Assembly: GCA_937925595.1 (NCBI GenBank)
Contig: CALALQ010000024.1
Coordinates: forward strand, 1 to 24,854
DNA length: 24,854 nucleotides
From: an uncultured Demequina sp.
GTDB lineage: Bacteria > Actinomycetota > Actinomycetes > Actinomycetales > Demequinaceae
Reading direction: 5' to 3'
Numbering within the stretch: the first letter of the stretch is position 1; every line of letters starts with the position of its first letter. A program made the position numbers and the translations under genes. Of the stretch, positions 14,886 through 24,854 are shown piece by piece. A model generated the notes under the pieces. That model was given only the letters and a program-made list of their open reading frames with translations, was not told where the DNA came from and made no database searches.

Positions 14886-14897
14886 GATTGCTGTTCG

Positions 14898-14971
14898 TGG
14901 GCCGGGCGGGACTTGAACCCGCGACCGATGGATTATGAGTCCACTGCTCTAACCGGCTGAGCTACCGGCCC
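14898..14971 (-). tRNA. tRNA with CAU anticodon (probable Ile2, possibly elongator Met)
   Basis: A complete cloverleaf folds from 74 nt: acceptor GGGCCGG pairs with CCGGCCC, T8-A9, D-stem GCTC/GAGC, anticodon stem GTGGA/TCCAT (one G-U) around loop CTCATAA with anticodon CAU, variable CGGTC, T-arm GCGGG-TTCAAGT-CCCGC, discriminator A. The 3' CCA is not encoded. It is not the initiator: pair 1-72 is G-C and the anticodon stem lacks three G-C pairs. Pairs C4-G69 and C5-G68 match those recognised by TilS in E. coli tRNA-Ile2, which favours Ile (AUA, via lysidine); elongator Met remains possible. Confidence 0.95.
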
Positions 14972-15075: not shown

Positions 15076-15148
15076 TCCCCCGTAGCTCAATTGGCAGAGC
15101 GTCCGACTGTTAATCGGCAGGTTACTGGTTCGAGTCCAGTCGGGGGAG
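15076..15148 (+). tRNA. tRNA-Asn (GTT)
   Basis: A full 73-nt cloverleaf: acceptor TCCCCCG/CGGGGGA, D-stem GCTC/GAGC, anticodon stem TCCGA/TCGGC (one mismatch or non-standard pair at the top), loop CTGTTAA with anticodon GUU, variable AGGTT, T-arm ACTGG-TTCGAGT-CCAGT, discriminator G. CCA is not encoded. The stop of a convergent lysin-like gene is only 4 nt downstream. Confidence 0.97.
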
Positions 15149-15152
15149 CTTT

Positions 15153-15776
15153 TCATGTCTTGCGCTTGAGGTACTCCCTCGCGTAGTAGATCCCGGCCTT
15201 GGTGCGGCCCCATTCGCGGCCGCCGCCCTTCTCCCAGCGCTCGATCGTCACAGTTGTCCCGCGCTTCTTGCGATCCACGATGCGAGCCGTGAGCGACGGA
15301 CCTGCGCGGCCGCGAAGGACGCTTGCCGTGACGGTGTGCGGGCCCGGCTTGAGGGCCTTCGCTTTGTCGCGGCGCGCGTGGTACTCCCAGTGGACCGGGT
15401 CGCGGCGTAGGAGCGGCTGCTTCCAGCCGTAATCGCCGCCATGGGCCTTGAGCCATTTGGCGACCGGCCTGTTGACTGAGGTGTCGAGTGCGAGGCCAAG
15501 GTTGTGCTTCGAGGTTCCCGGAACCGAAACGGGAAATCCGCGCATGCGCTTATACCAAACACCCTGGTATTTGCGAACATCTCCGAACGGGCCGCGATCG
15601 AGCCAGTGGTTCTTCGTGGGCACGTAGCGGCTGAGAAAGATTCTGCGCTGGCCCTCCGTGGACCGCCACGCTGAGTTGATGCCGCCAGCCGGAAGGCTGT
15701 CGGCGCGCATGCGAAGGTACGACGCGGCCGCATCGGATGCGAGTCTGTGGAGTCCTGATACCCGAATGGTGCGCAT
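15153..15776 (-). CDS. M15-family peptidase, phage-lysin-like (VanY/endolysin type)
   Basis: The 207-residue protein carries the M15 metallopeptidase motif SKHNLGLALD (89-98; zinc ligands His91 and Asp98) and DPVHWEY with His129 as third ligand and Asp126 in the place of the usual catalytic Glu. M15 enzymes cut D-Ala-D-Ala or the L-Ala-D-Glu bond of peptidoglycan. The absence of a signal peptide, the N-terminal helix ASDAAASYLRMRAD followed by NSAWRS, and a short basic beta-rich C-terminal region (about 143-207) resemble phage endolysins. ATG 15776 follows GGGGG by 4 nt; the frame is open upstream through the palindromic repeats, which is not credible coding. The stop is 4 nt from tRNA-Asn. 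Confidence 0.82.
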   Translation of the reverse strand: MRTIRVSGLHRLASDAAASYLRMRADSLPAGGINSAWRSTEGQRRIFLSRYVPTKNHWLDRGPFGDVRKYQGVWYKRMRGFPVSVPGTSKHNLGLALDTSVNRPVAKWLKAHGGDYGWKQPLLRRDPVHWEYHARRDKAKALKPGPHTVTASVLRGRAGPSLTARIVDRKKRGTTVTIERWEKGGGREWGRTKAGIYYAREYLKRKT

Positions 15777-15779
15777 TTC

Positions 15780-15794
15780 GCCCCCTTTGGGGGC
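15780..15794 (-). promoter_or_regulatory. Hairpin covering the ribosome site of the lysin-like gene
   Basis: On the minus strand GCCCCC-AAA-GGGGGC forms a perfect 6-bp stem ending 3 nt before the ATG. The 3' arm is the only Shine-Dalgarno-like sequence, so folding would hide it and limit translation. Confidence 0.45.
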
Positions 15795-15904
15795 ATTGTG
15801 GCCCTGCGCGGTCAGGGCCGCAACGGGAACGGGCGCGGCTCCCCCGCCTCCGCCGTTGCACTCCCACCTCGCCCGCGCCCTGCACCACCCTCCGCCCCAA
15901 CATC

Positions 15905-15960
15905 CTGTCGGTACGTGGGAGTCGTTTCCCGCGCGCGAAGCGACGCGGGTGTACCGACAG
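15905..15960. repeat. 56-nt palindromic element, copy A1
   Basis: Outer stem CTGTCGGTAC/GTACCGACAG (10 bp), 6-nt sides GTGGGA and GCGGGT that do not pair, and an inner 24-nt hairpin bounded by GTCGTTT and GAAGCGAC. In this copy the outer pairing extends 4 bp farther (CATC/GATG), making a 14-bp perfect terminal inverted repeat at 15901-15964. It lies in the 366-nt gap 15777-16142 between the lysin and VOC genes, which contains no gene I can support. Confidence 0.9.
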
Positions 15961-15993
15961 GATGCGGACGTGCACGTCCTCCAGGTGCGCACG

Positions 15994-16049
15994 CTGTCGG
16001 TACGTGGAGGTCGTTCCCCGCGCGCGAAGCGACGCGGGTGTACCGACAG
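15994..16049. repeat. 56-nt palindromic element, copy A2
   Basis: It has the same layout as copy A1: identical 10-bp outer arms, sides GTGGAG and GCGGGT, and an inner hairpin differing from A1 at one base. It starts 89 nt after A1 starts, in the same orientation. Its right half and flank (16029-16065) are repeated immediately downstream. Confidence 0.9.
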
Positions 16050-16070
16050 GATGCGGACGCGCGTGTACTG

Positions 16071-16107
16071 GCGACGCGGGTGTACCGACAGGATGCGGAC
16101 GCGCGTG
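16071..16107. repeat. Half copy A3 of the palindromic element (right arm only)
   Basis: These 37 bases are a perfect direct repeat of 16029-16065, at a 42-bp period, and comprise the right inner arm, the GCGGGT side, the outer arm GTACCGACAG and the flank GATGCGGACGCGCGTG. No left arm is present, so it cannot form the full hairpin by itself. It looks like a tandem duplication of the end of A2. Confidence 0.88.
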
Positions 16108-16142
16108 CGCGAGGTTGCGAGAAGGCGCGCGCGCCGTTGGTC

Positions 16143-16592
16143 TCAGGCGACGGAGTCCGTCAGGTCCACGTTGCCCCACTCGTCGAGGCCCCAGAACGGG
16201 TTCATCGCGAGTTCCCACACGTGCCCATCCGGATCGGCGAAGTAGCCGCTGTACCCGCCCCAGCTGGTCTCCACGGGGCGCTTGAGCATGGTTGCCCCGG
16301 CGATGATCGCCGCGCGGAAGCGCTCGTCGACTTCGGCGACGGTTCCGTAGTTCTGGGCGAGCGCGATGGCGCCAGAGCCCAGCACAGCGTCGGGCCGACC
16401 TTGATCCGCCGCGAGGTCGTCGCGGCCGAACAGCGCAATCACCATGCCATTGCCGCGAAAGAACACGATGCGGTCGGTGACCTCTTCCGGCTTCCAGCCC
16501 CATGCCTCATAGAACTCGCGAGAGTGTTCAAGGTCCGCCACTCCCAGCGTGATCACCGATACCCGCTGCCTGCGCCCACCCGGCATCGTCAT
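16143..16592 (-). CDS. VOC family protein (glyoxalase/bleomycin-resistance fold)
   Basis: The 149-residue protein has the paired beta-alpha-beta-beta-beta pattern of the vicinal-oxygen-chelate fold: VSVITLGVADLEHSREFYE near the N-terminus, FRGNGMVIALFGRDDL in the middle, and GYSGYFADPDGHVWELAMNP at the end, where the Glu of HVWEL is the usual metal ligand. Substrates of this superfamily range widely and cannot be predicted. Its ATG overlaps the dnaG stop as ATGA, so it is probably translated with primase from the dnaG promoter. A functional link to primase is unlikely. Confidence 0.9.
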   Translation of the reverse strand: MTMPGGRRQRVSVITLGVADLEHSREFYEAWGWKPEEVTDRIVFFRGNGMVIALFGRDDLAADQGRPDAVLGSGAIALAQNYGTVAEVDERFRAAIIAGATMLKRPVETSWGGYSGYFADPDGHVWELAMNPFWGLDEWGNVDLTDSVA

Positions 16593-18481
16593 CCCTCCCT
16601 TAGCGCGCGCCTGCGCGTCTCGAGCTGGATCAGTTCAGCAAAAGCGGCCTGCGCCTCTTCGCTTCCCTCCCCCGCACGCTGCATTGCGCCCCTCAGTTCG
16701 CCGATCTGGCGAGTGAGGTCAAGGTCAAGCATGCGCGAAAGAACCGATCGCGCATAGTCCCCCAGCTGATCTGGACGATCGGTGGGCAGGGGCGTCACCG
16801 CAAGCTGCGAGACCGTCCCCGCAAGCCCTTCCCCCGCCTGAGCCACGACATCTCCCACCCAGTCGGCTCCTGCGCTAGCAGGACCGCCAGCGGCGCGCAC
16901 CGCGTCGAACACCGCGCGATACTGCGGCACGGTGAACGCGTCGGGCGAGATCGCCTCGTACAGCGCGAGGCTTGACGGGTCCTTGGCGATATCCCCCGCG
17001 GCCTGCAGCAGCACGCCCAGAGCCAGAGCCTGGGCGCGCACCACGGGATCCTTGGCATGGGGACGGGCCGACGCTGGGGCCGGCTCTGTAGCTCTCGTCG
17101 CCGGAGGTGCGGCCTGAGTGCGCGATGGGGAGGGACGGCCAGTCTTCACGGCATCGGCCACGGCGCGAAGCACGGGATCTGGGTCCATGCCGAGCCAGCC
17201 TGCGAGTCTGCGCGCATATTCGGGGCGGAGTGCCTCGTCGCGAATGTTCGCGATGATGGGTGCGGCGGCTCGCAGGCCCGCGATGCGTCCCTCCGCGGTT
17301 GCGAGGTCCTGCGGAGCGATGGATGCCTTGATGACGAACTCGAACAGCGGCACAGGGTTGGCCATGAGCGCCGCCACGGCCGCGTCTCCGTGGCGCTGGC
17401 GGATCTCGCACGGGTCCTCGCCGTTGGGGTCCACGGCGACGAAGGTCTGCGCCAGGAACTGCTGATCGAGCGCAAAGGACTTGAGTGCGGCGTTCTGGCC
17501 CGCCTCATCTCCATCGAACGTGAAGATCACGCGAGCGCCCGTGGCGCCCACCTTGAGCTGAGTGGTGTCGCCCATGAGGCGGCGGACCATCTTGGCGTGG
17601 TCCTCGCCAAACGCTGTGCCACACGTCGCAACCGCGTTGGTCACGCCCGCGAGATGGCAGGCCATGACATCCGTGTAGCCCTCGACCACCACGGCGGTGC
17701 GCTCCGCGCGGATCGAGTTCTTCGCAAGGTCCAGCCCGTAGAGCACCTGCGCCTTCTTGTACAGCGGCGTCTCAGGCGTGTTGAGGTACTTGGGACCCTG
17801 ATCGTCGTCGTAGAGCCGGCGAGCGCCGAACCCGATGACATCGCCCGTGACATCGCGAATGGGCCACACGAGTCGGCCGCGGAAACGGTCGTAGATCCCG
17901 CGCTGGCCCTCACTGACCAGTCCCGAGAGCTTGAGTTCGTCCTCCGTGAAGCCGTTCTTGCGCAGGTGATCCGTGAGCGACGACCAGCCCTTGGGCGCGT
18001 AGCCCACACCAAAGTGCTCGGCGGCCGCGCGATCGAATCCGCGCTCGCGCAGGAAGTCGCGACCCGTGCGCGCCTCGTCACTCGCCAAAGCAGCCGCGTA
18101 GAACGACTGAGCCACACGATGAGCGTCGATGAGCCGCTTGCGCTGCCCCAGCGTCGGGCCGGTGCGCCCCCCACCCGACTCATAGCGGAGCGTGACGCCC
18201 GCCTTGTCCGCGAGATACTCGACGGCCTCCGCAAACGGCAGGCCATCCATGCGCATCACGAACTCGATGACGTCGCCGCCCTCGCCACAGCCAAAGCAAT
18301 GCCAGCGGCCCACCGCGGGGCGCACCGTGAAGGAGGGGCTGCGCTCGTCGTGGAAGGGGCACAGGCCCTTGAGAGAGCCCACCCCCGCTGACTTGAGCGC
18401 AACGTGCTGCCCAATGATCTCCTCGATGGGCGCGCGCTCGCGGACGGCCGCGATGTCTTCGCGGTTGATCGTCCCTGCCAC
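16589..18481 (-). CDS. dnaG: DNA primase
   Basis: DnaG makes the RNA primers for chromosome replication at the fork together with the DnaB helicase. The 630-residue protein has an N-terminal CHC2 zinc finger (Cys41, His44 in CPFH; Cys62, Cys65 in CFGC), the catalytic core with RGRLVWPIRD, and the Toprim domain: Glu267 in VVVEGYTD with Asp271, and FTFDGDEAGQ with Asp323 and Asp325. After a Pro/Ala-rich linker near 447-475 the C-terminal helicase-binding region follows. The GTG at 18481 lies 6 nt after TAGAGT, a leaderless arrangement. The downstream VOC gene overlaps by 4 nt. Confidence 0.97.
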   Translation of the reverse strand: MAGTINREDIAAVRERAPIEEIIGQHVALKSAGVGSLKGLCPFHDERSPSFTVRPAVGRWHCFGCGEGGDVIEFVMRMDGLPFAEAVEYLADKAGVTLRYESGGGRTGPTLGQRKRLIDAHRVAQSFYAAALASDEARTGRDFLRERGFDRAAAEHFGVGYAPKGWSSLTDHLRKNGFTEDELKLSGLVSEGQRGIYDRFRGRLVWPIRDVTGDVIGFGARRLYDDDQGPKYLNTPETPLYKKAQVLYGLDLAKNSIRAERTAVVVEGYTDVMACHLAGVTNAVATCGTAFGEDHAKMVRRLMGDTTQLKVGATGARVIFTFDGDEAGQNAALKSFALDQQFLAQTFVAVDPNGEDPCEIRQRHGDAAVAALMANPVPLFEFVIKASIAPQDLATAEGRIAGLRAAAPIIANIRDEALRPEYARRLAGWLGMDPDPVLRAVADAVKTGRPSPSRTQAAPPATRATEPAPASARPHAKDPVVRAQALALGVLLQAAGDIAKDPSSLALYEAISPDAFTVPQYRAVFDAVRAAGGPASAGADWVGDVVAQAGEGLAGTVSQLAVTPLPTDRPDQLGDYARSVLSRMLDLDLTRQIGELRGAMQRAGEGSEEAQAAFAELIQLETRRRALREG

Positions 18482-18487
18482 GTGCTC

Positions 18488-18493
18488 ACTCTA
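18488..18493 (-). promoter_or_regulatory. -10 of a leaderless dnaG promoter
   Basis: On the minus strand TAGAGT lies exactly 6 nt before the dnaG GTG, with no ribosome site. It is only 13 bp from the divergent -10 at 18507-18512, so polymerase could not occupy both promoters at once. Confidence 0.65.
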
Positions 18494-18506
18494 GTTGGCG
18501 GGCAGA

Positions 18507-18512
18507 TAGGCT
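18507..18512 (+). promoter_or_regulatory. -10 of the DUF6941-like gene trio
   Basis: TAGGCT fits TAnnnT. A start near 18519 would give a short leader of about 22 nt containing GGAAAGGA before the GTG at 18541. Unlike dnaG on the other side, this gene therefore seems to have a normal leadered mRNA. Confidence 0.5.
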
Positions 18513-18540
18513 GGGTGCCAGTCGTGGAAAGGAAAACCCC

Positions 18541-18990
18541 GTGCGAGTAGACGCCTTCCTCGCGGACACCGCAGAGGTCGTCAATGGCAAGATCTACGCC
18601 CTTGGCGCCGGCTGGAACACAATCTTCGTGCGCCAGTTCCCCGCCCAGCACCGCCGCCTCGCGGTGGCGGCCACCGTGCACGTGCCCTTCAACGAGACCA
18701 ACATCTCCCACAACTTCGAGCTCAAGCTCGTGACCGAAGACGGCGAGACCTACCCCATTGGCATTCGCCCTGATGAGGAAGGCAATCCGCAGCCAGTGCG
18801 CGCCATGGGAGGCGAGTTCAAGCTGGGCCGCCCCGCTCACCTCGCCGACGGCTTCGAGCAGGTTGCGTGCTTCGCCTTCACGTTCGACGGCCTGCGCTTC
18901 GACAAGCCGCGAATGCTCTCGTGGGTCATCTCTATCGACGGTGAGGAGCTCACGCGCCTGCCCATGCGAGTCCAGAACGCCCAGCAGTGA
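18541..18990 (+). CDS. DUF6941-like conserved protein, unknown function
   Basis: The 149-residue protein begins with RVDAFLADTAEVVNGKIYAL and GAGWNTIFV, continues with strands such as AVAATVHVPFNETN and FELKLVTEDGETY, and ends with a beta-rich region. This pattern recalls small actinobacterial proteins grouped as DUF6941, but I assign the family only tentatively. There is no signal peptide or membrane segment, so it is cytosolic. The GTG at 18541 follows AAAGGA by about 6-8 nt. Its stop overlaps the GTG of the next gene (GTGA), so it heads a coupled three-gene unit with two membrane proteins. Confidence 0.75.
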   Translation: MRVDAFLADTAEVVNGKIYALGAGWNTIFVRQFPAQHRRLAVAATVHVPFNETNISHNFELKLVTEDGETYPIGIRPDEEGNPQPVRAMGGEFKLGRPAHLADGFEQVACFAFTFDGLRFDKPRMLSWVISIDGEELTRLPMRVQNAQQ

Positions 18991-19409
18991 CCTTCTACAC
19001 CTCGTTCGTCTATCCGGCGGTGCTCGTCGCTTGCGCGATGCTCGTCATCGTCGGCACGCTCGTCGTCATCACGGCCCGCATCCACCGCGTGCTGCAGTGG
19101 GTGGTTTCGGGAACCTACGTGATCGCCGCGCTGCAGGGAATCATGGTCATTGTGGGGCTGGTCACGAGCCAGATGTCGTCCCTTCCCGTGGCGCTCGGCT
19201 ATCTCATCGCGACCCTTGCGCTGCTGCCCCTCCTTGGTATCGCCCGCCTTGGCACGCCCGACGCCGCGGCCGCCTCTGGTGACCCCAACCACCCGGTCTT
19301 GGCTCCCGATCAGATCGCTCGCGTCGACGGTGGCGCGGCGATCATCGTCGGCATCGCCATGGCGGTCGCCTCGTGGCGCATCACCGAGCTCATCGTGGTG
19401 GCGTCGTGA
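18987..19409 (+). CDS. Small four-helix membrane protein, unknown function
   Basis: The 140-residue protein has hydrophobic segments near residues 7-29, 34-58, 65-87 and 114-130, joined by short loops; the longest loop (about 88-113) is polar and Asp/Pro-rich. I recognise no family. The GTG start overlaps the previous stop and its own stop overlaps the next GTG, both as GTGA, so the three genes are very likely translated together. This suggests the two membrane proteins may act together, perhaps as a heteromer (inference). Confidence 0.78.
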   Translation: MTFYTSFVYPAVLVACAMLVIVGTLVVITARIHRVLQWVVSGTYVIAALQGIMVIVGLVTSQMSSLPVALGYLIATLALLPLLGIARLGTPDAAAASGDPNHPVLAPDQIARVDGGAAIIVGIAMAVASWRITELIVVAS

Positions 19410-19795
19410 ACCCGATCGCGCGACTGCTGCTGGTGGTGGTCTATTCCGTGCTTGGCCTCGCATCTGCCGGGCGCGCGACGGTGCAGATCGCCGAGAAGTT
19501 CCATGAGGCTCCCGTCGCCTATACCGTGTCCGCCGTCTCCGCCGTGCTGTACATCGTCATCGCGTTCGCGCTGTGGCGCAGGTGGGAGAAGGTCGCTCTC
19601 GTTGGTTCCGCGTTTGAGCTCGCTGGCGTGCTCATCGTCGGCACGCTCGGCTACGTGAACTCGGAGCTGTGGCCAGACGAGACCGTGTGGACCGGCTACG
19701 GCTCGGGCTATGGATGGGTGCCGCTCGTGCTGCCCATTGCCGCCCTGTTCTTCCTCGTGAAGGGGCGTCAGCGTCGGGCCACGACGAACCGGTGA
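19406..19795 (+). CDS. Small four-helix membrane protein, unknown function
   Basis: With the GTG at 19406 the protein has 129 residues and hydrophobic segments near 5-22, 37-57, 63-84 and 103-118, ending in a basic tail (KGRQRRATTNR). The motif GRATVQIAEKFHEAPVAY between the first two segments is polar and probably exposed. The start is set by its GTGA overlap with the preceding gene; a longer open frame upstream would lie inside that gene. The last 28 nt overlap the 3' end of the convergent dgt gene. The function is not recognised. Confidence 0.76.
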   Translation: MNPIARLLLVVVYSVLGLASAGRATVQIAEKFHEAPVAYTVSAVSAVLYIVIAFALWRRWEKVALVGSAFELAGVLIVGTLGYVNSELWPDETVWTGYGSGYGWVPLVLPIAALFFLVKGRQRRATTNR

Positions 19796-21033
19796 TACCA
19801 GTCGTGAGCCGACTTGTCAGTGAGCGAAGCGACCTGATCCACCGCGACGCGCTTGCGCTCGGCATCGCTTGACGCATCGTTGAACAGCGCCGCGAAATGC
19901 GGCTCGAGCGCATCCGCTCCCCGATCGATGAGGGCCAATACCAGGGCCGACAGTCGCTCGCGCTGCTGGCGGTAGCTCGCCCGCTTCTCTCGCGGCGCCA
20001 TGAGGAAGTGCACTGCGATGCCCTTGAGGATGAGCATCTCGGACTCGACTTCAGGACTGATGACCAGGTCCGCACCATGACGCGTGAGCGGGCCGTCACC
20101 GTGGCGCGCACGCGTATCCGCGATGACCGAGTCGCAGAGCCGACCGATGAGCTGGCTCGTCATGTCCTTGAGGCCCGCGAGCGCACGATGGGAGCCGTCG
20201 TAGTCGTCCATCCACCACGGCTCCGCACGCAGGCGGTCGAGGGCTTCGATGAGCGCGGTCTCGTCTCCCCTGCCATACCACTCGCGAACATGCTGAGCCA
20301 CGGCGCGCACCTGGCCCTCGTCACGCAGCACTGACAGCGAGACGTCGTTGTGGACCACCGAGTCCTCGACGTCGTGCACCGAGTACGCCACATCGTCGGC
20401 GAAGTCCATGATCTGGGCCTCGAAGCTGCGCGAGCCGTGAGGTGCTCCTTGGCGCACCCAATCGAAGACCTGCTCGTCATCGTCGTAGTAGCCGAACTTC
20501 CTCGTGGGAGTGCCGTCTGGACGATGCGGCGCCTGTGGCTCTGGCCACGGGTACTTCAGCGAGGCATCGAGGGACGCTCTGGTGAGATTGAGGCCAACTG
20601 AGGCACCGGTGTGCGGGTCGATGGACTTGGGTTCGAGCCGGGTCAGCAGCCGGAACGTCTGGGCATTTCCCTCGAAACCGCCGATGTCGCGCGAGACCTC
20701 ATCGAGGGCGCGCTCTCCGTTGTGACCAAAGGGAGGGTGGCCAAGGTCGTGGGCGAGGCAGGCGGCGTCGACAACGTCCTCATCGCTGCCGAGCACCTTC
20801 GCGAGTCCCCTGCCCACTTGCGCGACCTCGAGAGTGTGGGTGAGGCGCGTGCGCACGAAGTCTCCCGTGCCTGCGCCAAGTACCTGGGTCTTCGCACCAA
20901 GTCGGCGCAGCGCGCTCGAGTGCACGATGCGCGCACGGTCGCGTTCGAAGGCGGTTCGAGACGATCGCTTCGGGGGTTCCGGGGCGAAGCGCTCGACATC
21001 GGCGTCCGAGTATCCGATCGGCAGCTCGCTCAC
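19768..21033 (-). CDS. dgt: dGTPase-like HD-domain deoxynucleoside triphosphate triphosphohydrolase
   Basis: The enzyme hydrolyses dNTPs to nucleoside and triphosphate, trimming nucleotide pools. The 421-residue protein shows the HD metal-binding pattern: RLTHTLEV with His66, and CLAHDLGHPPFGHNGE with His95-Asp96. Other signatures are RTAFERDRARI with SALRRLGAKTQV near the start and DFADDVAYSVHDVED later. In actinobacteria dgt commonly lies close to dnaG, as here. The GTG at 21033 sits 6 nt after TAAAGT. Specificity for dGTP over other dNTPs cannot be judged; the length and sequence fit the dGTPase-like type 2 group. Confidence 0.93.
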   Translation of the reverse strand: MSELPIGYSDADVERFAPEPPKRSSRTAFERDRARIVHSSALRRLGAKTQVLGAGTGDFVRTRLTHTLEVAQVGRGLAKVLGSDEDVVDAACLAHDLGHPPFGHNGERALDEVSRDIGGFEGNAQTFRLLTRLEPKSIDPHTGASVGLNLTRASLDASLKYPWPEPQAPHRPDGTPTRKFGYYDDDEQVFDWVRQGAPHGSRSFEAQIMDFADDVAYSVHDVEDSVVHNDVSLSVLRDEGQVRAVAQHVREWYGRGDETALIEALDRLRAEPWWMDDYDGSHRALAGLKDMTSQLIGRLCDSVIADTRARHGDGPLTRHGADLVISPEVESEMLILKGIAVHFLMAPREKRASYRQQRERLSALVLALIDRGADALEPHFAALFNDASSDAERKRVAVDQVASLTDKSAHDWYHRFVVARR

Positions 21034-21039
21034 GGTTCG

Positions 21040-21045
21040 ACTTTA
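21040..21045 (-). promoter_or_regulatory. -10 of a leaderless dgt promoter
   Basis: On the minus strand TAAAGT lies exactly 6 nt before the dgt GTG, with no ribosome-binding sequence. Confidence 0.6.
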
Positions 21046-21088
21046 GCGGCCACGCGCCTACTCCCCTGCTAACCCCGCCCTCTCGCAT

Positions 21089-21117
21089 CGTGTCGGTACG
21101 CAGGTGTCGTTTCGCGG
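21089..21117. repeat. Half copy B1 of the palindromic element (left arm only)
   Basis: These 29 bases are identical to 21168-21196 (offset 79) and comprise the outer arm TGTCGGTAC, the GCAGGT side and the left inner arm GTCGTTTCGCGG. The matching right half is absent. It lies in the 307-nt divergent gap 21034-21340 between dgt and the AbiEi-like gene; besides B1, B2 and the two -10 elements I see nothing in that gap. Confidence 0.85.
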
Positions 21118-21168
21118 GTATCGCTACGGTGCACTCCCGCCGCCATGCGGCCCTCACCCCTTCGCACC

Positions 21169-21224
21169 GTGTCGGTACGCAGGTGTCGTTTCGCGGCAGC
21201 GAAACGACACTGCTGTACCGACAC
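21169..21224. repeat. 56-nt palindromic element, copy B2
   Basis: The 10-6-24-6-10 layout matches copies A1, A2 and C, with GTGTCGGTAC/GTACCGACAC as outer stem. The terminal pair is G-C where the other copies have C-G, a compensated change. The inner hairpin GTCGTTTCGC/GCGAAACGAC is a perfect 10-bp stem, the best-paired of all copies. The 6-nt sides are GCAGGT and ACTGCT. Confidence 0.9.
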
Positions 21225-21328
21225 CGGGCCAGGCGGGGGGCGGGGCGAGGATCGTCCACAGGCGCGCGGGTACCGGCGGTAATCCCCAGATCTCCTGGAC
21301 GCCCCCACCACTCTTGTGCGCGCTCCCG

Positions 21329-21334
21329 CACACT
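21329..21334 (+). promoter_or_regulatory. Possible -10 of a leaderless AbiEi-like gene
   Basis: CACACT lies exactly 6 nt before the ATG at 21341, and there is no ribosome site. The first base departs from TAnnnT. Confidence 0.4.
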
Positions 21335-21340
21335 CACGCC

Positions 21341-22288
21341 ATGCCCCGCATAGCTCGTACTGCCTCGCTGCTCGCGTCCGTCGCCGAGCCAGGCTCCTCC
21401 GGGCAGCATGGAGAACTCGTCGCGACCCACGGCCGAGCCGCGCTCGAGCATGCGAGAGCCACGGGCAAGGCGCATCGCATCTTGCCGCGCCTCTATGTGC
21501 ACGCGGACAACAGTGAGGACTTCTCCACTCGAGCCAGAGCCGCACTGCGTTGGCTCCCCATCAATGTGCTCTTGACGGGACTTGCCGCCTGCGCGGTATA
21601 CGGCCTGATAGATACGCCACCGGAACTGATCAGGGCTACCGCGCCTTCACCCCTGCACGTGCGCTCGCCTTCCTGGCTGCGACTGCGGCGATGCGTTGCC
21701 GCTACCGAGCCCTCCCGGTTCGCGGGAGTTCGGATCGCTCCCGTTGCTCACGCGATCGTCCACGCATGGGAGGAGTCGCACGAAGGCGCGCGTGCGGCCA
21801 TCTTTACCGCGCTGCGCGAAGGCAAGACCACCGTGGCGAGCCTGCGACAAGCCCTCGACCATTACCCGCGCGTCAAGAAACGCCGAACGCTTGAGGCCTT
21901 CCTGTCGCACCTGCTCGACGGAATGCACAGTTTTCTCGAGTACGAAGGCGCGAGGAAGGTGCTCAACACCCCGGATCTCGCAGGAATGACGTACCAGGAA
22001 CCGTTCTTGATCGAGGGCCATCGGTTCTATGCCGATCGCTACGATCCCACGACTCGCACGTCGGTGGAGTTCGACGGCCGTGAGTTCCACGGCTCACCGG
22101 AAGGTCAGGCTCGTGATGCGTGGCGCGACTCTCTTTTCCGCTCCATTGACGTTCTGCCTATTCACATCCCTTACGCGGACGTCATGGCCAGGCCCGCGTG
22201 GTGCCGGGACCAGGTGCGACGCGCTATCGCCTCGCGGCGATCCAGTCCTGACGCCGCCGCTGCGCGCCCGCCGCAAGAGCCCCCCTAG
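21341..22288 (+). CDS. AbiEi-antitoxin-like / DUF559-type protein, orphan
   Basis: The 315-residue protein has an N-terminal region like the AbiEi winged-helix antitoxin domain (ATGKAHRILPRLYVHADNS, then a cluster of hydrophobics including LLTGLAACAVYGL). The C-terminal region, about 230-290, resembles DUF559/Vsr-type endonuclease folds: RTSVEFDGREFHG, RDAWRDSLFRSI. The Glu/Asp pair in VEFDG and the following His could belong to a PD-(D/E)XK-like site. Such two-part proteins are common single genes in actinobacteria, with unknown role. No AbiEii nucleotidyltransferase toxin lies beside it. ATG 21341 follows a -10 by 6 nt; upstream in-frame sequence is palindromic repeat and not credible coding. 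Confidence 0.75.
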   Translation: MPRIARTASLLASVAEPGSSGQHGELVATHGRAALEHARATGKAHRILPRLYVHADNSEDFSTRARAALRWLPINVLLTGLAACAVYGLIDTPPELIRATAPSPLHVRSPSWLRLRRCVAATEPSRFAGVRIAPVAHAIVHAWEESHEGARAAIFTALREGKTTVASLRQALDHYPRVKKRRTLEAFLSHLLDGMHSFLEYEGARKVLNTPDLAGMTYQEPFLIEGHRFYADRYDPTTRTSVEFDGREFHGSPEGQARDAWRDSLFRSIDVLPIHIPYADVMARPAWCRDQVRRAIASRRSSPDAAAARPPQEPP

Positions 22289-22291
22289 GCT
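22286..22291 (+). promoter_or_regulatory. -10 of the dihydrofolate-reductase-family gene, made from the upstream stop codon
   Basis: TAGGCT begins with the TAG stop of the preceding gene (22286-22288) and lies exactly 6 nt before the ATG at 22298. A GGAGG also sits between them, but only 1 nt from the ATG. Confidence 0.55.
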
Positions 22292-22297
22292 GGAGGC

Positions 22298-22873
22298 ATG
22301 AGCATGATTCGCGGATACCTCGCCATGTCGCTCGACGGCTTCATCGCGGGCCCCAACGACGAAGTTGCATGGCTCGAGGAAGAGCGAGAGACGGGGTTGC
22401 CGCTCGCTGCCGACGAATGGGCGCGGCGGCCCTCAGCCGGCCTCGAGTTTGATGCGTTTCTTGAGCGAGTGGGCGCGATCGTCATGGGACGCCGCACCTA
22501 TGACGTCGTGTGCGGCCTCGGCGATGCGTGGTTCTACGGCGATATCCCCATGCTCATCGTTACGTCTAGCGACCTTCCGAGGGCTCGGGAATCGGTGACG
22601 GCGTTCCATGGCTCGGTCGCGGACGCGATTGCTGCGGCGCAGGATCTCGCCGGCGATAAGGACGTGTACGTCGATGGCGGCCGGACGGTCCGCACCGCAC
22701 TCGATGCGCGTTTACTGGACCATCTCGTCATCACCGTGATACCCACGGCGCTTGGCGACGGGATTCCGCTCTTCGCGGGCCTCGACGAGCGCGCGGATTT
22801 CGCGGTTGAGCGCGTCGAGAAGTGGGGTCCGGGCGCGGTTCAGCTCCACCTCACCACGCGCAGGGAGATCTAG
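22298..22873 (+). CDS. Dihydrofolate reductase family protein (RibD C-terminal-like)
   Basis: The 191-residue protein has the layout of the RibD_C/DHFR-like family, small NADPH-binding reductases of unknown substrate: IRGYLAMSLDGFIAGPND at the start, AIVMGRRTYDVV in the middle, MLIVTSSDLP, KDVYVDGGRTVRTAL (nucleotide-binding Gly-Gly), and LDHLVITVIPTALGDGIPLF. It is 9 nt after the AbiEi-like gene but has its own -10, so it may be transcribed both alone and with it. It is not a true FolA: length and motifs fit the RibD-type group. It is convergent with dusB. Confidence 0.9.
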   Translation: MSMIRGYLAMSLDGFIAGPNDEVAWLEEERETGLPLAADEWARRPSAGLEFDAFLERVGAIVMGRRTYDVVCGLGDAWFYGDIPMLIVTSSDLPRARESVTAFHGSVADAIAAAQDLAGDKDVYVDGGRTVRTALDARLLDHLVITVIPTALGDGIPLFAGLDERADFAVERVEKWGPGAVQLHLTTRREI

Positions 22874-22886
22874 AGCCGACGCTCCG

Positions 22887-22918
22887 CCCCGAGACGCTCA
22901 GCCCCCCGAGACGCTCAG
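22887..22918. repeat. 17-bp-period direct repeat spanning the dusB stop
   Basis: The 15-base sequence CCCCGAGACGCTCAG occurs at 22887-22901 and 22904-22918. The dusB stop codon (22898-22900 on the minus strand) lies in the first copy, so the end of the gene was probably formed by a small tandem duplication. Confidence 0.75.
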
Positions 22919-24079
22919 TTCGGCCTCGCGCAGCCGCTCCTCAAGATCCGGAGTGATGTCACGAGTGTCGAGCCAGCCTTCAGGGCACGACGGTCGCTTG
23001 GGCGTTCCTTGGCGGCCTCGAGCACCTTCCGCGTCGGCGCCCGGGTACGGCGAGTCGCCCAGGGAATCCAACAGGCCACGCAACTCGGCTAGCGATGAGA
23101 CCAGGCCAAGAGAGCGTCGGGCCTCACCACCCACCGGGTAACCCTTGAAATACCAGGCCATATGCTTGCGAATCTCTTGCATGGCCTTGTGCTCGTCGCC
23201 GCCAAAATGCTTCACCATAAGCTCACCGTGGCGATACACGGTGTTCGCCACGGCCGCGAGCGACGGGCGCACGCGCTCAGGACGCCCCTCGAATGCCGCC
23301 TGCAGATCCGCGAAGAGCCACGGGCGACCCATGCATCCGCGCCCCACCACGACGCCATCGCAACCGGTCTCGCGGACCATGCGCACAGCGTCCTCCGCAG
23401 CCCAAATGTCGCCATTGCCAAGCACAGGAATGGTCTTCACGGCATCGCGCAGGCGAGCGATCGCCTCCCAGTCAGCCGTACCCGAGTAGTAGTCCGCCGC
23501 CGTCCGGGCGTGCAGCGCTACGGCCGCCGCGCCCTCGCGCTCAGCCATCACGCCAGCGTCGAGGTACGTGAGGTGCTCGTCATCGATGCCTTTGCGCATC
23601 TTGACGGTCACAGGGATGTCGAAACGGGACGCTTCGCGCACCGCCGCCCGCACGATGTCGCGGAACAGATCGCGCTTCCATGGGAGCACCGCGCCGCCGC
23701 CCTTGCGCGTCACCTTGGGCACGGGGCAGCCGAAGTTCATGTCGATGTGGTCGGCGCGGTCTTCCTCGACGATCATCTTCACGGCCGCGCCGATCGTCGC
23801 CGGATCGACTCCGTAAACCTGCACACTACGAGGCGTTTCGTCCGGGTCGTGACGGATGATGCGCAGCGACTCTGGCGTGCGCTCAACGAGCGCGCGCGAG
23901 GTCACCATCTCCGCGACGTACAGGCCGCCGCCGTGTTCGCGGCATAGCCGCCGGAACGCCGCATTCGTAATGCCTGCCATGGGCGCGAGCACCACTGGGG
24001 TCTCCACAGTGAGTGGTCCCAGGGTCAGCGGCGGCAGCAAGGCCGACGCTGAGGTCGCGGCAGCAGTCATAGTCACCAT
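22898..24079 (-). CDS. dusB: tRNA-dihydrouridine synthase
   Basis: The FMN enzyme reduces uridines in the tRNA D-loop. The 393-residue protein shows the TIM-barrel signatures LAPMAGITNAAFR (31-43), DMNFGCPVPKV with catalytic Cys118, VTVKMRKG, ALHARTAADYYSG and GNGDIWAAEDA with VVVGRGCMGRPWLF. The C-terminal helical tRNA-binding region follows (KAMQEIRKHMAWYFKG). The symbol is given by similarity to actinobacterial DusB. Start ATG 24079 is the first of the frame; ATG 24070 is also possible since no ribosome site decides. It lies between dgt and glyS on the same strand but is separated from both by inserted genes or a repeat. Confidence 0.93.
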   Translation of the reverse strand: MVTMTAAATSASALLPPLTLGPLTVETPVVLAPMAGITNAAFRRLCREHGGGLYVAEMVTSRALVERTPESLRIIRHDPDETPRSVQVYGVDPATIGAAVKMIVEEDRADHIDMNFGCPVPKVTRKGGGAVLPWKRDLFRDIVRAAVREASRFDIPVTVKMRKGIDDEHLTYLDAGVMAEREGAAAVALHARTAADYYSGTADWEAIARLRDAVKTIPVLGNGDIWAAEDAVRMVRETGCDGVVVGRGCMGRPWLFADLQAAFEGRPERVRPSLAAVANTVYRHGELMVKHFGGDEHKAMQEIRKHMAWYFKGYPVGGEARRSLGLVSSLAELRGLLDSLGDSPYPGADAEGARGRQGTPKRPSCPEGWLDTRDITPDLEERLREAELSVSGG

Positions 24080-24118
24080 TGTCTCAGGCCTGGCGTGCGT
24101 CTACCCCGCGCTCTCACT

Positions 24119-24174
24119 CTGTCGGTACGTGGAGGTCGTTTTCGCGCGGTGATACGACGCGCGTGTACCGACAG
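24119..24174. repeat. 56-nt palindromic element, copy C
   Basis: It has the same layout as the other copies: outer stem CTGTCGGTAC/GTACCGACAG, sides GTGGAG and GCGCGT, inner 24-nt hairpin GTCGTTTTCG...GATACGAC with weaker pairing in the middle. It lies in the 152-nt gap between the glyS stop and the dusB start. Confidence 0.9.
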
Positions 24175-24231
24175 CGAGCAAGTGGGCAAGCCGGGACGGC
24201 ACCCGGCCAACGTTCGAGGTTGGAAGCGCTT

Positions 24232-24854
24232 CTACGCGCCGATCAAGCGCTCCGCAAGGTAGCTCTTCACCTGGGACAGAGCCACGCGCTCCTGCGTCAT
24301 GGTGTCGCGGTCGCGAATCGTGACGGCCTGGTCCTCGAGAGTGTCGAAGTCCACCGTGATGCAGTACGGCGTGCCGATCTCATCCTGGCGGCGGTAGCGC
24401 TTGCCGATCGACTGGGTCTCGTCGTAGTCGATGGTCCAGAACTGGCGCAGCTCCTTGGCGAGTTCCTGGGCGGTGGGCTTGAGGGCGTCGGTCTTGGAAA
24501 GGGGCAGCACCGCGGCCTTGACGGGAGAAAGGCGCGGGTCGAGGCGCAGCACCTGTCGCTTCTCGACGCCACCGGACGCGGTGGGCGCCTCCTCCTCTGC
24601 GTACGCTTCGACGAGGAACGCCATGAGGGAGCGCGTGAGGCCCGCAGCGGGCTCGATCACGTAGGGGATGTAGCGCTCGTTGGCTGCCTGGTCGAAGTAC
24701 GACAAGTCCTTGCCCGAGTGCTCGGAGTGCGTCTTGAGGTCGAAGTCGGTGCGATTCGCGATGCCCTCGAGTTCTCCCCACTCGCTACCCTGGAAGCCGA
24801 AGCGGTACTCGATGTCGACGGTGCGCTTCGAGTAGTGCGACAGCTTCTCCTTGG
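24232..24854 (-). CDS. glyS: Glycyl-tRNA synthetase, alpha2 type (3' part)
   Basis: These 206 C-terminal residues belong to the class II enzyme that charges tRNA-Gly. The visible part starts with [35 protein letters not shown] (glycine-recognition region), then class II motif 3 region [12 protein letters not shown], and the anticodon-binding domain with [31 protein letters not shown] and [20 protein letters not shown]. The frame remains open at the right edge of the window, so the start lies outside. It is the single-chain alpha2 form, not the alpha/beta form of enterobacteria. Confidence 0.95.

Follow-up and report, generated by a model that had tools for sequence, protein, structure and literature searches.

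Dispersed palindromes of a Demequina contig look like the local form of a gene-end hairpin family of related soil actinobacteria

The stretch analyzed here, 24,854 nt of contig CALALQ010000024.1 from an uncultured Demequina sp. (hereafter the window), carries four full copies of a 56-nt palindrome. These repeats look like the local form of a widespread and apparently undescribed family of gene-end palindromes of related soil actinobacteria. In the best reading the family occurs, besides the lineage of the window, in two or more families of the order, and consists of hairpins at the 3' ends of genes that resemble repetitive extragenic palindromes (REPs). The window and the two families of relatives, here named the first and the second family, have only the apex in common, GTCG(TT)...(AA)CGAC, which is 23-24 nt long and located at the tip of the hairpin. 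The arms are specific to each lineage, both sides changing together.

The full copies are here named A (15905-15960, apex 15921-15944), B (15994-16049, apex 16010-16033), C (21169-21224, apex 21185-21208) and D (24119-24174, apex 24135-24158), all listed without a strand. They had been reported in a first-pass annotation and all four were present. The exact arms TGTCGGTAC-N36-GTACCGACA occur at 15906-15959, 15995-16048, 21170-21223 and 24120-24173 and not once in 100 shuffled sequences; the N38 spacing proposed earlier for a search pattern gave no match. Together with the reversed-pattern control and the filter-free ranking described below, the shuffles rule out a chance origin of the copies.

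Trained on nothing but the four window copies, a covariance model (R1) matched 21 of 395 first-family genomes at E<=0.01, with a best match of 5.5e-6; about four chance matches are expected at this limit, and the weakest matches were not trusted singly. In 14 of the 15 R1 loci fetched, the apex GTCGTT...CGAC was found with different, palindromic arms, while locus L080 was without apex. The exact core GTCGTTTTN{5,13}AAAACGAC was present in 55 of the 395 genomes, up to 32 times per genome, compared to 7 genomes, once each, for the reversed pattern. Core length was 24 nt except for one core of 25 nt among the matches listed, and the whole hairpin of the relatives measures 65-66 nt. A further model (R2), whose training set includes the four window copies, gave 84 to at least 150 matches in each of eight rich genomes, both strands counted, which corresponds to tens of copies per genome.

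In the reciprocal direction, a model of 40 first-family copies and no window copy (R3) reported only the copies C, A and D over the whole window (E 1.1e-8, 1.7e-6 and 0.018, respectively). Without filters over positions 15700-24854, the four copies were the top four sites, with copy B at 0.045 and the next site at 0.51. Taken alone, the support of R3 for copies B and D is weak.

The first family probably corresponds to the Micrococcaceae, since the same kind of element is located on plasmids of Arthrobacter and Paenarthrobacter and the plasmid AceA is 87-98% identical to full-length genome matches. Among plasmid records, type II elements were found in four and a partial type I element in one. 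In a DnaG tree with long branches the window was placed outside of the eight Micrococcaceae rows, with G250 as the nearest genome; a DusB tree did not settle its placement. Within the family of G250, here the second family, R2 matched 31 of 165 genomes at E<=0.001 (best 9.9e-13), G250 itself giving none, and R1 matched some of these copies as well (best 4e-5). The second-family copies are mostly 65 nt long and carry the apex GTCGTT[CA]T and arms such as GCCGTCGAGCACGACGTTGCT, or CCTTTGAACGTACGCCCCACT in G911. In many of them (L286-L325) a further module, ACGAC...GC, lies outside one arm, by eye on one side only. An order-wide scan with the exact core pattern found 4 of 238 genomes versus 2 of 238 for the reversed control; this pattern cannot catch the second family with its core GTCGTTCT or GTCGTTAT, and absence from the remaining genomes is not implied.

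Pairing was maintained in the relatives while arm sequences changed. In 40 first-family copies, selected for the core and for at most 8 arm mismatches, 90.2% of the alignment cells were paired compared to 73.9% when shuffled and 32-47% when slid; 20 of 30 pairs had changed on both sides, with a covariation of 0.401 versus 0.130. The alignments A2 and A3 exclude 11 of 51 core matches because their arms had more than 8 mismatches (five of them genomic and six viral), and also the single 25-nt core. With the window copies added, the values were 89.2% paired, 23 of 30 pairs two-sided and a covariation of 0.447. The 29 distinct copies among 48 of the second family were 90.7% paired with 119 two-sided cells; the scan had required GTCG...CGAC, so these pairs are constant by construction. 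One apex pair in this family was C-G in 14 copies and A-T in 13.

The cleanest test of pairing is the spacer between aceA and aceB, as orthologues at this site were picked by place with little regard to the arms. Fourteen orthologues contained 12 two-sided cells versus 4.9 in shuffled alignments (0 of 500 shuffles). Five pairs were two-sided, a number reached by 38 of 500 shuffles, and 88.3% of cells were paired versus 86.1%; columns 5-9 at the outer end were often unpaired. G665 and G605 carry GTAGCGC instead of the GTAGCAG of most others, and the partner arm is altered too, fully in G665 and with one G-U pair in G605. In G483 a paired change lies within the apex itself. Paired changes on both sides were present in both families and at this single site.

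The site is also informative by its occupancy. A survey of aceA in 45 genomes returned 30 loci, and an aceB start was located behind aceA in 16 of them. Thirteen of these spacers contained the element, three contained another palindrome and none contained neither. That each of the 16 genomes has some long hairpin in this gene-end slot speaks for the hairpin being functional. The three replacements, in the spacers L242 (G655), L249 (G564) and L266 (G653), are a different long palindrome, TTGCYCTATCAC...GTGATAGRGCAA. The remaining 14 loci had no aceB start within 150 nt; in one of them (G683), a further aceA gene is followed at 28 nt by a match to the core. A further nested palindrome, TCGCTCTCTCACT...AGTGAGAGAGCGA, with a stem of about 45 including mismatches, was noticed in L209 and L218.

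Regarding the location relative to genes, 84 of 89 first-family copies were used (at least 17 of 21 arm pairs required), of which 52 were in tandem, 28 in convergent and 4 in divergent spacers and none inside a gene. An alternative gene model gave 51, 29, 4 and 0, respectively. In the second family, 46 of 48 copies were placed with a codon model of 0.95 G+C at third positions (GC3): 23 tandem, 20 convergent, 3 divergent and none inside genes, many of these copies being orthologous to one another. Compared to the other spacers of the same loci, divergent spacers were depleted (p 2e-8 in the first and 0.001 in the second family) and convergent ones enriched (p 3e-6 and 0.0006); these values treat copies and spacers as independent, which is not fully true, and 14 of 15 loci were recovered, L135 being missed.

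The elements lie directly at the gene ends. Seventy-four of 108 first-family gene ends facing an element were 0-30 nt away from it, 11 were at 31-100 nt and 4 beyond; in 23 of the 28 convergent spacers the element was at most 42 nt from both genes. In the second family, 52 of 63 gene ends were at 0-50 nt. The other 19 of the 108 gene ends lay inside the element (ends at -9 and -13), which thus supplies the stop codon. No copy was found in three random 20-kb stretches of G605. The earlier statement that the copies are not simply terminators is in agreement with the window, where one copy is divergent; in the relatives, however, they stand directly behind stop codons and convergent spacers are enriched.

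Within a genome the arms are rather uniform: 20 sampled copies of G605 share CCCAACTAGGTAGCGCTAAGT and 23 of G653 share CCCAACTGACTCGCAGTTGTT. These samples are the top model or pattern matches, which overstates the uniformity, and G640 is mixed. The loops differ within the same genomes, with 13 distinct loops in the 20 copies of G605 and 14 in the 23 of G653. Variable as they are among copies, the 6-nt loops roughly follow RRSSYY (G605, G653, G665, G645 and G640). At equivalent places each genome may carry its own arm type, as in L203 and L148, which are both paired at 21 of 21 positions and clearly alike only in their right flanks. Orthologues of one arm type often retain the loop.

The fold of the window copies deviates from that of the relatives. 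Predicted RNA folds of the plus strands ranged from -28.8 to -42.9 kcal/mol (z -3.2 to -8.3). Nine of ten outer-stem pairs were invariant and the terminal pair was C-G except in one copy, which has G-C; in the inner hairpin, the first four pairs were constant and the fifth was U-A or U-G. Above the first 4-5 inner pairs, copies A, B and D paired poorly and alternative folds were equally good. In copy C, part of the 6/6 internal loop pairs with a one-base shift, and the corresponding positions of the relatives are stem. The 10-6-24-6-10 plan of the first-pass annotation describes the window form. The family as a whole has a stem of about 30 bp closed by a loop of 5-6 nt, and a non-pairing 6/6 internal loop is not a feature of the family. 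The compensated terminal pair, taken as a sign of selection on pairing, is seen, but it is not significant alone (125 of 500 shuffles equal it) and four sequences are too few to judge covariation; that pairing is maintained follows from the relatives.

Two half copies had been overlooked, a right half of 21 nt (16071-16091, no strand), whose downstream sequence is that of copy B, and a left half of 28 nt (21090-21117, no strand), which repeats the left half of copy C without a mismatch and gave an R1 match at 21090-21127 (E 0.18). In total, the 24.9 kb contain four full and two half copies, all outside recognised genes as described. The palindrome of copy A continues for 4 nt beyond each end (CATC/GATG). 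Copies A, B and D are located in spacers between co-directional genes, copy D between the end of its upstream gene (an open reading frame (ORF) to 24232, minus strand, presumably glyS) and a Dus gene, minus strand as well. Copy C lies in a divergent spacer between a dgt-like HD gene (minus strand) and a plus-strand ORF of 315 amino acids without Pfam match (21341-22288). The window also contains genes for tRNA-Met (14897-14971, minus strand) and tRNA-Asn (15076-15149, plus strand).

The window arms at spacings of 28-46 occurred in 52 genome-contig stretches (56 matches), none with the apex, from scattered phyla including three Mycobacterium, one Bifidobacterium and many Variovorax. In Variovorax and its relatives, another palindrome of the form TGTCGGTAC...GTACCGACA recurs; it mostly measures 51-52 nt and lacks the GTCG apex (L003, L008-L010, L012-L014, L016, L023, L044, L048 and L052). 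One viral contig matched the arms, without apex and among tRNA-like sequence. The core was matched by eight viral contigs, the six listed having 11-20 arm mismatches; there was no core match in phages, and plasmids matched neither the window stretch nor the second family.

Taken together, we regard an RNA-level function of the hairpin at gene ends as the most likely reading, and slightly favor it over all others combined; it can coexist with a mobile element. The element would be transcribed and its RNA hairpin would mark the gene end whichever way it is oriented, either terminating transcription without a U-tract or protecting the upstream mRNA from 3'-5' decay. Actinobacterial gene ends often lack U-tracts, and REPs between cistrons are known to block such decay. 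A host factor would recognise the apex, and the arms would need only to pair. Several points weigh against this reading. The flanks of the relatives' copies are C-rich on the left and G-rich on the right, strongest in the first 10-20 nt, and show no U-tract or T-run (T about 15%). U-tailed terminators were not significantly rarer at element-bearing gene ends (3 of 106 versus 11 of 158, p 0.17; in a second comparison 0 of 56 versus 2 of 84). In the window, one of the four copies is in a divergent spacer, the distance of the copies A, B and D from the upstream stop is 58-183 nt, more than usual in the relatives, and the folds are weaker than the relatives' median of about -50 kcal/mol. Furthermore, a position at gene ends is also expected of an insertion tolerated only there, and the symmetry of a palindrome could equally serve the binding of double-stranded DNA.

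A more specific scenario is offered tentatively, and we consider it rather doubtful as a whole: in a system of 3'-end formation specific to this lineage of the order, a host factor reads the GTCG apex and, in either orientation, terminates or shields transcripts that have no U-tract, and hairpin-templated copying rewrites the arms of dozens of copies in concert, giving species-specific arms at orthologous sites. The main reading itself includes that the arms within a genome would become alike in two steps, one arm being converted by another copy and the partner being copied within the hairpin, sparing the loop. Two steps are proposed because the loop would be converted as well if one uninterrupted tract spanned the hairpin. 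Gene conversion was reportedly raised as a question of REP evolution long ago. If gene-end function holds, actinobacteria would have a concrete gene-end element with a recognisable tip. The exchange of arms at one site without loss of pairing is also a natural record of concerted evolution of short palindromes.

Second in rank, and possible rather than probable, is a selfish mobile element, REP-like or a miniature inverted-repeat transposable element (MITE), moved by some enzyme. Gene ends would be the tolerated sites and the genome-specific arms the result of successive bursts. The multiple copies with arms alike within and different between genomes, the half copies in the window and in relatives, the stop codons supplied by the element and the mutual replacement of palindrome families at the aceA-aceB site all fit this explanation. 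However, no empty site was found among the 16 aceA-aceB spacers, the one site surveyed for it, and copies at orthologous sites, alike in flanks and loops, are retained in different genomes. No copy-specific flank similarity that would indicate a target-site duplication was found among 74 of 83 copies (near-identical flanks removed), and no REP-associated tyrosine transposase (RAYT; Y1_Tnp, PF01797) in 24 Micrococcaceae genomes, 12 of them element-rich and 12 others, the control being positive in 5 of 14. Of the REP/MITE-like mobile element proposed initially, the dispersed intergenic palindrome with maintained pairing stands; a RAYT as its transposase is not supported by these 24 genomes. Insertion into pre-existing hairpins was rejected separately, with an own-flank complementarity of 4.69, not above the 4.90 of swapped pairs.

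A double-stranded DNA target, in which a dimeric nucleoid or boundary protein or a cruciform-acting enzyme recognises the apex, seems improbable to us. What is constant forms an inverted repeat of its own around a variable centre, and copies are also found on Arthrobacter plasmids; yet a duplex-binding site would not need arms of about 20 bp that keep pairing despite sequence change, and the gene-end bias is strong. Integron attC-like recombination sites were dropped as very unlikely. These are hairpins behind stop codons as well, with structure conserved over sequence, and the type II ends CCCAAC...GTTGGG resemble the attC core-site consensus YYYAAC...GTTRRR; but the ends frequently read CTTGGG or GATGGG instead, type I elements and window copies end differently, and integron integrase (TIGR02249) exceeded the cut-off in none of the 24 genomes, nor in any control genome, so that a positive control is lacking. 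All 24 had weaker tyrosine-recombinase matches below it. Equally remote are REPs mobilised by RAYTs, which would likewise be palindromic, extragenic and multi-copy; they are contradicted in the relatives by the missing Y1_Tnp gene, and tagged REPs have stems of 5-13 bp according to Di Nocera et al. 2013 (PMC3733652), far shorter than that of the family.

Compared with known systems, no RNA family was matched: Rfam matches in the window (15500-24854) up to E 5 were all far below the gathering cut-off, and seven loci of relatives had none. In agreement with the first-pass annotation, the literature searched contained no description of this hairpin family, most subscription journals being outside its coverage. 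Intrinsic terminators are similar in their stable hairpin directly behind stop codons, also between convergent genes, a position seen in the relatives and more weakly in the window; unlike them, the family is without U-tract, and apex and arm sequence are common to its copies. The uptake-sequence terminators of Neisseria and Haemophilus also form gene-end hairpins from inverted pairs of a fixed short word, in about a thousand copies, whereas the family has tens. MITEs are likewise small, non-coding, terminally inverted and multi-copy, but here no parent transposase or target duplication was seen, and the arms differ between lineages while the position is kept.

The GTAG and CGTC REPs, according to PMC3733652, are also short, multi-copy, extragenic palindromes with a possible role in termination or mRNA stability. 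GTAG REPs have an unpaired GTAG tag at one end; CGTC REPs have a stem of 8-9 bp, a loop of 4-5 nt and a terminal CGTC, and like the family described here they lack a dedicated transposase. The text of that paper contains no match for Actinobacteria or Arthrobacter, and RepRanger (PMC12306157) has a count line for one Arthrobacter species. The elements differ from both kinds: they are single hairpins whose stem of about 30 bp is paired up to the ends, they have no unpaired terminal tag, the constant part lies at the tip, and the 24 related genomes gave no RAYT. In the wide sense of the term, they are REPs in the relatives, with many copies and none of the 84 and 46 sampled ones inside genes.

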